This document shows positions 8,674 to 10,720 of a DNA stretch of 14,818 bases, piece by piece. Source of the DNA: an uncultured SAR324 cluster bacterium (GTDB lineage Bacteria > SAR324 > NAC60-12); assembly GCA_902513935.1 (NCBI GenBank), contig CABXOR010000041.1, positions 1 through 14,818 on the forward strand. Reading direction: 5' to 3'. The notes beneath the pieces are model-generated. The model was given only the letters and a program-made list of their open reading frames with translations, was not told the origin of the DNA and made no database searches. Each line of letters opens with the position of its first letter. The first letter of the stretch is position 1. The position numbers and the translations under genes were made by a program.

Positions 8674-9732
8674 TTATGTAAAAATTAGTTTTGCTTTACT
8701 AAAATTGCTTACGTAGCCGATGCAAGCAGAGGGAAACACTCCGACATTATGCAGGTCTTTTAGAATTGTGGTAGTTTCATCTTCCGGAACTGCGACCAAA
8801 AGGCCGCCGCTGGTTTGTGGATCCAGCATTAATTCTTGCAATATCGGTGCACTTTTTTCAGGAAATTTCCAGTATTTTTCAACCAAACTGCGATTGGTTT
8901 TATTTACACTAGTACTTACACCACGCTCATACATTTCCCTGGCTTCACTCAAAATAGGGATATCATCAAGTGTGATGTTCAATGTTAAGTCAGAACCGGG
9001 CACCATTTCCATGCAATGACCAGCAAAACCAAATCCAGTGATATCAGTTGCTGCGTGTATCTCAAAGTTCGCCAATACTTCAGCCGCAGCTTTGTTTAGT
9101 TCAATTAAGGAGTCCAGACAATCCTGAAGCGCTTCTTTTGAAACTAAATTTTTTAGATTAGCATTTAATAAAACGCCACTGCCAATTGCCTTCGTCAAAA
9201 TCAACTGATCTCCAGGCTGAGCACCGATATTTCTCCAAATTTTTTCAGGATGCACCAATCCTGTTACAGTCAATCCAAATTTTGGTTCATCGTCATCAGT
9301 GGTATGTCCTCCTAATAGAACTGCACCTGCTTCTGTGATTTTTTGCAGAGCACCTGCAACAATCCTTTCCAGCACCTCATCTTCAAGTTTTCCGGAAGGA
9401 AAGCCTACAAGATTTAGACAGGACAATGGTTTGCCGCCCATAGCATAAACATCACTTAGGGAGTTGGCTGCGGCAATTTGTCCATATAAATAAGGATCAT
9501 CAACCGGTGGTGTGATAAAATCAGCTGTAAAAACAAGAGCCTGTTCATCATTCAAAAGATACACTCCTGCATCATCACTGGTGTCAAAACCAACGAGCAC
9601 ATTAGAGTCATTATTTTGAGGTAAAGAAGCCAGCATTTTTTTCAATCCGACCGGATTGAATTTTGATGCTCAACCACAGGTTTTTGCCAAACTTGTGAGA
9701 CTGGGCTTTTGAAAAATTTGTTTCAATTTCAT
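8674..9732 (-). CDS. selD: Selenide, water dikinase; selenoprotein (Sec21 from in-frame TGA)
   Basis: SelD makes selenophosphate from selenide and ATP, the selenium donor for selenocysteine and 2-selenouridine. From residue 45 the protein is a standard member: SDDAGVY, TADFITPPVDDPYLYGQIAA, AMGGKP, LLGGHTTDDDEP, DPQTSGGLL. A plain open frame begins only at a TTG (9645) and lacks the N-terminal active-site loop. Extending upstream in frame to an ATG at 9732 crosses one TGA (9672-9670) and yields KTCG-Sec-ASKFNP. Sec21 then aligns with Cys17 of E. coli SelD and Lys24 with the catalytic Lys20, with the same spacing of three. Many SelD proteins carry Sec at this place. With Sec the length is 352, normal for the family (E. 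coli 347). A SECIS-like hairpin follows the TGA. Another ATG at 9753 is possible; neither has a clear ribosome site. Confidence 0.93.
9641..9660 (-). promoter_or_regulatory. Bacterial SECIS hairpin in selD
   Basis: On the coding (minus) strand TTCAATCC (9660-9653) and GGATTGAA (9648-9641) form a perfect 8-bp stem around the loop GGTC (9652-9649). The stem starts 9 nt after the TGA, and the loop begins 18 nt after it. This fits the bacterial SECIS pattern: an apical loop about 16-37 nt downstream with a G in its first two positions, bound by SelB. E. coli fdhF also has GGUC in its loop. The TTG that looks like a start codon is part of the 3' arm. Confidence 0.85.
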
Positions 9733-10284: not shown

Positions 10285-10720
10285 GAATTTCCGCTCATTA
10301 TTAGATTATCTTTCAGATGACTCAGCACCTGTGAATCAGTAGACTTAGCAGGGAGTATTAGTAAATTTCTTTGTCTTCAAAAAAGTGCGATTGTCAACTG
10401 TTGAAATAGTAAAGCATAAGCAGAAAAGGGAAAGAATGCAACGATCTATATTGTCAATCATTCATCACAGAAGCAGAATGATTGAATCAGTTCCCAGAAA
10501 TAAAGGAGAGAGAACCAAATATAATTATCACTAATTTAAGTGGAAAATTTGGCAAAATTGCACATTACAATCGTGTGAAAAGAAAATTGATTGAATTTTT
10601 ACTAAAGTTTCATGAAAATTAGCCGAGATTAATAGTAGTTCATTTGCTCAGGAATTTTATGTAATAGCATTACTGATTTGTATGTCTTTTGAGTAACACT
10701 TTTTTCAACATAGTACAAAG
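10285..10720. other. Intergenic region between divergent genes, with inverted repeat
   Basis: This 436-nt AT-rich gap separates the thioesterase gene (leftward) from the lipoprotein gene (rightward). I see no tRNA, no convincing gene and no clear promoter. It holds a perfect 10-bp inverted repeat, TCAATCATTC (10454-10463) and GAATGATTGA (10476-10485), with a 12-nt spacer and no T-tract after it. The longest plus-strand frame here is a 32-codon one from the ATG at 10437, of odd composition and probably not coding. The repeat lies near the middle, suitable for a shared regulator site. Confidence 0.5.
10454..10485. repeat. Perfect 10-bp inverted repeat
   Basis: TCAATCATTC and GAATGATTGA are exact reverse complements separated by 12 nt. 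The lack of a following T-run argues against a terminator. The form suits a dimeric DNA-binding protein or a structured leader, but no function can be assigned. Confidence 0.6.

Follow-up and report, generated by a model that had tools for sequence, protein, structure and literature searches.

The selD gene of the window (the whole stretch of DNA analyzed here, 14,818 nucleotides) raises the question of where its coding region begins and, with it, how a TGA codon just upstream of the conventional frame is read. The plain open reading frame occupies positions 9645..8674 of the minus strand, starts with TTG (9645-9643) and encodes 323 amino acids; the catalytic residue of SelD and the accompanying Lys lie outside it, as a previous sequence-only reading of this DNA had pointed out. 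The same frame remains open upstream, through the single TGA at 9672-9670, to an ATG at 9732-9730, which yields a protein of 352 residues with the N-terminus MKLKQIFQKPSLTSLAKTCG-U-ASKFNPVGLKKML...; apart from this TGA the frame is intact. This extension through one TGA with Lys at +3, proposed in that reading, was recovered at exactly the same coordinates. As set out below, the UGA at residue 21 is almost certainly read as selenocysteine (Sec), and we predict from the sequence, with very high confidence, that the gene encodes the selenoprotein form of selenophosphate synthetase, with UGA at the position of the catalytic Cys and a SECIS element downstream. The relevant features are the following.

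8674..9732, minus strand: complete frame of selD (selenide,water dikinase), 352 residues, residue 21 being predicted Sec encoded by UGA (TIGR00476, translation)
9730..9732, minus strand: likely selD start codon, ATG (18 of 38 relatives have ATG here in the ungapped comparison)
9670..9672, minus strand: in-frame TGA at the catalytic position, predicted to encode Sec (opposite Cys17 of 3u0o)
9661..9663, minus strand: Lys24 codon, three codons after the predicted Sec codon (Lys conserved in 110 of 110 genes)
9641..9660, minus strand: predicted bacterial SECIS hairpin, 8-bp stem, loop GGUC at 9652-9649 (folding, pairing, covariation)
9643..9645, minus strand: TTG, mechanical start, probably false, inside the 3' arm of the SECIS hairpin (Leu-codon variation in relatives)
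8676-8674, minus strand: selD stop codon (translation)

Identity of the read-through protein

The read-through protein belongs to the SelD family by a score above the curated cut-off across the family length (TIGR00476, 362.4 bits against a cut-off of 125, residues 12-319 of 352 aligned with profile positions 2-310 of 311), and it matches two solved SelD chains, 2yye (206.3 bits) and 3u0o (203.5 bits). The latter, which we take to be the E. coli enzyme, is a Cys-type SelD that is homologous over residues 12 to 320 and differs in having Cys where the window has UGA: residue 21 is aligned with Cys17 and Lys24 with Lys20, both presumably essential in E. coli SelD. The read-through protein thus combines the Cys/Sec position of the SelD active site with Lys at +3.

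Conservation of the TGA codon and of the coding pattern

The selD genes were compared at two levels. Among 81 genes, comprising 80 genome-contig loci (the best 80 of 588) and the locus of the nearest genome, G001 (96.0% and 95.7% identical to the window in two blocks that cover it), the codon for residue 21 is TGA in 71, TGC in 6 and TGT in 4. With 29 loci of further relatives added, the set amounts to 110 genes (again including the best 80 of 588), in which this codon is TGA in 100, a Cys codon in 10 and nothing else, and Lys is found at +3 in every gene. The pairing of an in-frame UGA with Cys in homologues, by which selenoprotein genes are recognized, is accordingly observed here.

At the level of genomes, the read-through SelD was matched in 38 of 40 relatives, with no match to it in the remaining two of these genomes (G006 and G032). 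The N-terminal part is covered in 34 genomes, each with an internal TGA; these comprise 32 near full-length genes, a fragment in G020 and a gene in two frames in G005, and the residue-21 codon itself was read in 30 of the 34 (L102-L131). G008 has a C-terminal SelD piece at the start of a contig, and G035 and G039 have weak SelD relatives only, at 28-29% identity. The short SelD of G003 was rejected as a genuine fragment and is attributed to an assembly gap, because a run of 100 N stands where the rest of selD should lie. In G005 (L123, G005:C1:69848-70881), the gene lies in two frames with several internal stops, its first 51 residues being 94% identical to those of the window, and is perhaps an assembly error. 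The closest named SelD genes (L002-L009, among the best 80 of 588) come from assemblies labeled Anammoxibacter, Gemmatimonadetes, Calditrichia, Verrucomicrobiales, Desulfobacterales and Desulfobacteraceae, a discordance that suggests either mislabeled assemblies or gene transfer.

The pattern of nucleotide differences, counted by codon position in 38 loci against the window as the ungapped reference, shows a protein-coding pattern upstream of the TTG. For codon positions 1, 2 and 3, the frequencies of differences are 0.163, 0.132 and 0.526 in residues 11-20, 0.217, 0.095 and 0.388 in residues 22-29, and 0.363, 0.142 and 0.526 in residues 31-50; the signal is weak in residues 1-10 (0.439, 0.311 and 0.542) and gone upstream of the ATG (0.658, 0.703 and 0.690). 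Given that third positions are the most variable on both sides of the TGA, the coding constraint expected of a selenoprotein gene crosses this codon and begins near the ATG. At the place of the ATG (9732-9730), 18 of the 38 relatives also have ATG, and a later start is assigned to G007 and G009 because of stops there. At the place of the TTG (9645-9643), 13 of the 38 have TTG and the other 25 a different Leu codon, a variation that speaks against a start at this codon. Relatives with a normal start at the TTG and without conserved upstream codons, which the sequence-only reading had named as evidence against its own proposal, were not what this comparison returned: the upstream codons are kept.

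The predicted SECIS hairpin

Downstream of the TGA, the arms TTCAATCC (9660-9653) and GGATTGAA (9648-9641) form all 8 of 8 pairs around the loop GGTC (9652-9649). Between the TGA and the stem lie 9 nt, and between the UGA and the loop 17 nt, which makes the first loop base number 18 after the codon; the hairpin previously described from the sequence alone at this spacing is thus exact at 9660-9641. Folding also gave a clear result: the 41 nt from the TGA fold at -13.2 kcal/mol (z -4.20), and 0 of 200 dinucleotide shuffles fold as well. Because the hairpin region is coding, synonymous recodings were used as the null model. For the 27 nt around the hairpin, the folding energy is -9.3, and 400 such recodings average -3.1 (P 0.0025). 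By the same standard, the 8/8 pair count of the window taken by itself is weak (P 0.145, 2000 draws), since much of the pairing is dictated by the encoded amino acids.

The aligned genes extend this result. The hairpin alignment consists of 39 genes (34 distinct), namely the window, 30 relatives' loci and, out of 80 named loci, just the eight closest. Across it, 264 of the 312 possible pairs form, compared with 206.6 (sd 6.9, maximum 233) in 2000 synonymous recodings. In the seven rows shown, P against recodings ranges from 0.0025 to 0.05 for folding energy and from 0.027 to 0.22 for consecutive pairing, except for L130, which has no excess in the latter (1.0). The loop is GGUC in 34 of the 39 genes. 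Pairing is complete (8/8) in 17 of the 39 rows and comprises just 3 to 5 of the 8 pairs in 8 rows, distant relatives being looser; the outermost pair (pair 8) fails in 21 of the 34 distinct rows. The two pairs next to the loop (1 and 2) are invariant, pairs 3, 4, 6 and 8 have changes on both sides, and the pairing register is best at slide 0.

Five measures of covariation were compared with 500 shuffles, which ignore relatedness among the genes: the fraction of paired cells (82.4% vs. 75.9% shuffled, 0/500), cells with double changes (30 vs. 12.2, 0/500), the covariation score (0.337 vs. 0.226, 0/500) and further pair types (14 vs. 11.8, 23/500) exceed the shuffled values, and pairs with a double change (4 vs. 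3.4, 202/500) are no more numerous than in the shuffles. A stable stem-loop downstream of the UGA with a G in the apical loop and compensatory changes, as in bacterial SECIS elements, is thus present, more weakly in the distant rows. The Rfam scan of the window returned no family at threshold.

Taken together, the TGA/Cys pattern in relatives, the codon-position constraint and the covarying hairpin bear out the proposal that this SelD is itself a selenoprotein.

Selenium machinery and other selenoproteins

The nearest genome, G001, encodes SelB (400 bits, cut-off 242.25), SelA (510.1 bits, cut-off 267.9) and tRNA-Sec (52.9 bits, gathering threshold 47; also called tRNA-Sec by ARAGORN, with anticodon TCA). 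All three components whose absence was to count against a Sec-containing SelD are present in this close relative. Among the 40 relatives' genomes, with completeness from 51 to 99, SelB is over the cut-off in 36, SelA in 33 and tRNA-Sec in 30; all seven tRNA-Sec loci run through ARAGORN have the anticodon TCA. ARAGORN found no tRNA in the window itself. MnmH exceeds the cut-off in 33 of the 40 genomes, G001 among them.

The search for other genes with an in-frame TGA, which had been recommended as a check, was productive: a SelW-like gene was matched in 29 of the 40 genomes, including G001, and each of the 31 matches contains one TGA. In the five SelW-like loci where the motif was recognized (L143 and L145-L148), CxxU is followed by a predicted hairpin; in the sixth, L144, the motif was not recognized. 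Among the matches listed, the formate dehydrogenase alpha subunit (TIGR01591) exceeds the cut-off in 12 of 21 genomes, and the matches concerned contain no internal TGA. Also among the matches listed are two sub-threshold formate dehydrogenase-like ones with one TGA each (G027:C2:2677-3453 and G033:C37:3109-3465), which might represent further selenoproteins. Of the 15 window genes examined, 6 end with TGA, so the codon keeps its meaning as a stop there.

Elsewhere in the window, at 10539/10540 between two gene clusters, 657 bases are absent relative to G001 (L140). A repeat check of this 657-base stretch of G001 revealed no element ends, and only two short direct repeats and one palindrome. 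G003 has extra DNA at about the same place (L158), with a mechanical ORF of 230 aa.

Annotation of the gene in databases

The sequence-only reading had expected automatic annotation of this gene to be truncated at the 3' arm of the SECIS hairpin, and nearly all of the best 120 listed database proteins do lack the front of the protein. In a search with 7998 candidates scored, 118 of the best 120 listed proteins begin at residues 30 to 46, past the TGA; among these 120, 25 begin at the position of the TTG and 81 begin 15 residues further in. The remaining two of the best 120 begin at residue 1 and have Trp in place of Sec, probably due to translation with a code in which TGA means Trp. Given that the N-terminal active-site loop is missing in 118 of the best 120, alignments, models and function calls made with these proteins lack the catalytic end.

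Alternative explanations

Three alternatives were considered and rejected. A normal, shorter SelD that starts at TTG 9645, the upstream similarity being fortuitous or vestigial, would explain why the plain frame and 25 of the best 120 listed database proteins begin there; such a protein, however, would have neither the catalytic residue nor the Lys, and it would leave unexplained both the conservation of the upstream codons with a coding pattern and the presence of TTG in just 13 of 38 relatives, so that we consider it extremely improbable. Only a single base separates TGA from the Cys codons TGT and TGC, and the TGA might then reflect a single-base mutation or a misread base in what is really a Cys gene, or mark a recent pseudogene. 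Against this, TGA is shared by 100 of the 110 related genes (including the best 80 of 588) and lies within the match in all 34 of the 40 genomes in which the N-terminus is covered, and the window frame is otherwise intact; the chance that this explanation holds appears negligible. Genome-wide reassignment of UGA, for example to Trp or Gly, without involvement of Sec insertion, would fit the two database proteins with Trp at residue 21, but TGA terminates 6 of 15 window genes, tRNA-Sec with anticodon TCA, SelA and SelB are encoded in G001, and the TGA sits at a Cys position; there is hardly any likelihood left for such a reassignment.

A more elaborate possibility is that two forms are made, a Sec-containing SelD when selenium is plentiful and an inactive SelD started internally at the TTG of the SECIS element. 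The TTG indeed lies within the 3' arm, but its occurrence in just 13 of the 38 relatives makes this scenario very unlikely.

The Cys-Gly-Sec motif

The predicted Sec-containing SelD of the window has Cys two residues before Sec (Cys19-Gly20-Sec21, window 9678-9670), as is the case in most of the clade. In the 110 genes (including the best 80 of 588), Cys is found at -2 in 40 (38 of the Sec type and 2 of the Cys type), at +2 in 31, at neither position in 39 and at both in none. Both the window and 28 of the 30 relatives' loci read have this Cys at -2, a distribution largely accounted for by shared descent. In this respect, the clade differs from 3u0o and many Bacillales rows, which have Cys at +2. 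Cys19 and Sec21 could conceivably form a redox pair, in which a reversible selenenyl-sulfide would shield the catalytic selenium, load it or render it inactive; we regard this as rather unlikely. If it were true, the Cys-Gly-Sec pair would stand in for Sec-x-Cys, the pair present in other SelD lineages. In the excerpts consulted from papers on SelD, selenocysteine and CxU, the CxU motif is assigned to other families, with SelD not among them.

Comparison with known systems and implications

Sec-containing bacterial SelD proteins have been surveyed previously (PMC4561486, PMC1794560, PMC2398784, in the portions available; further portions of comparison literature, PMC12013277 and PMC5029168). 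According to the available text of PMC4561486, Sec is present in 19% of SelD genes of a prokaryotic reference set, always at the same position, and selenoprotein genes are usually misannotated; that of PMC2398784 gives 357 Sec-SelD from ocean samples, with a CxxU motif in about 5.6% of single-domain Sec-SelD. In the available part of PMC5029168, Table 1 lists SelD and no other selenium genes for two SAR324 single-cell genomes. A 16S probe site for the marine SAR324 group had no exact match in 40 genomes and a single match with one mismatch, and thus lends no support to a placement in that group, although 16S may be missing from many such assemblies. The window selD shares with the Sec-containing bacterial SelD (TIGR00476) the family, the single Sec position, Lys at +3 and a hairpin just after the UGA. 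The hairpin, like bacterial SECIS elements, is a stem-loop in the coding region right after the UGA with a G in the apical loop (a feature described in the portion of PMC2398784 available); its loop in the window has four bases, GGUC in 34 of 39 genes, and it corresponds to no Rfam family at threshold.

By analogy with the known bacterial pathway, SelB, with GTP and Sec-tRNA-Sec, would bind the hairpin loop, and Sec would be delivered at UGA 9672-9670 instead of termination. Sec21, together with Lys24, would then take part in the synthesis of selenophosphate from selenide and ATP. The selenophosphate would be passed via SelA to the synthesis of SelD itself and at least of the SelW-like selenoprotein, and probably also to MnmH, for selenouridine in tRNA. 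Because the internal UGA would be read as Sec, SelD would need its own product for its own synthesis, which mechanistically is the known dependence of SelD on its product.

The window selD is a new, usually misannotated case of a classic bacterial selenoprotein, with the small oddity of the Cys-Gly-Sec motif. With it comes a further clade whose genes, as far as read, are uniformly Sec-SelD and have a well-conserved hairpin; in practice, the chief consequence is that the front of SelD is lost in automatic annotation.
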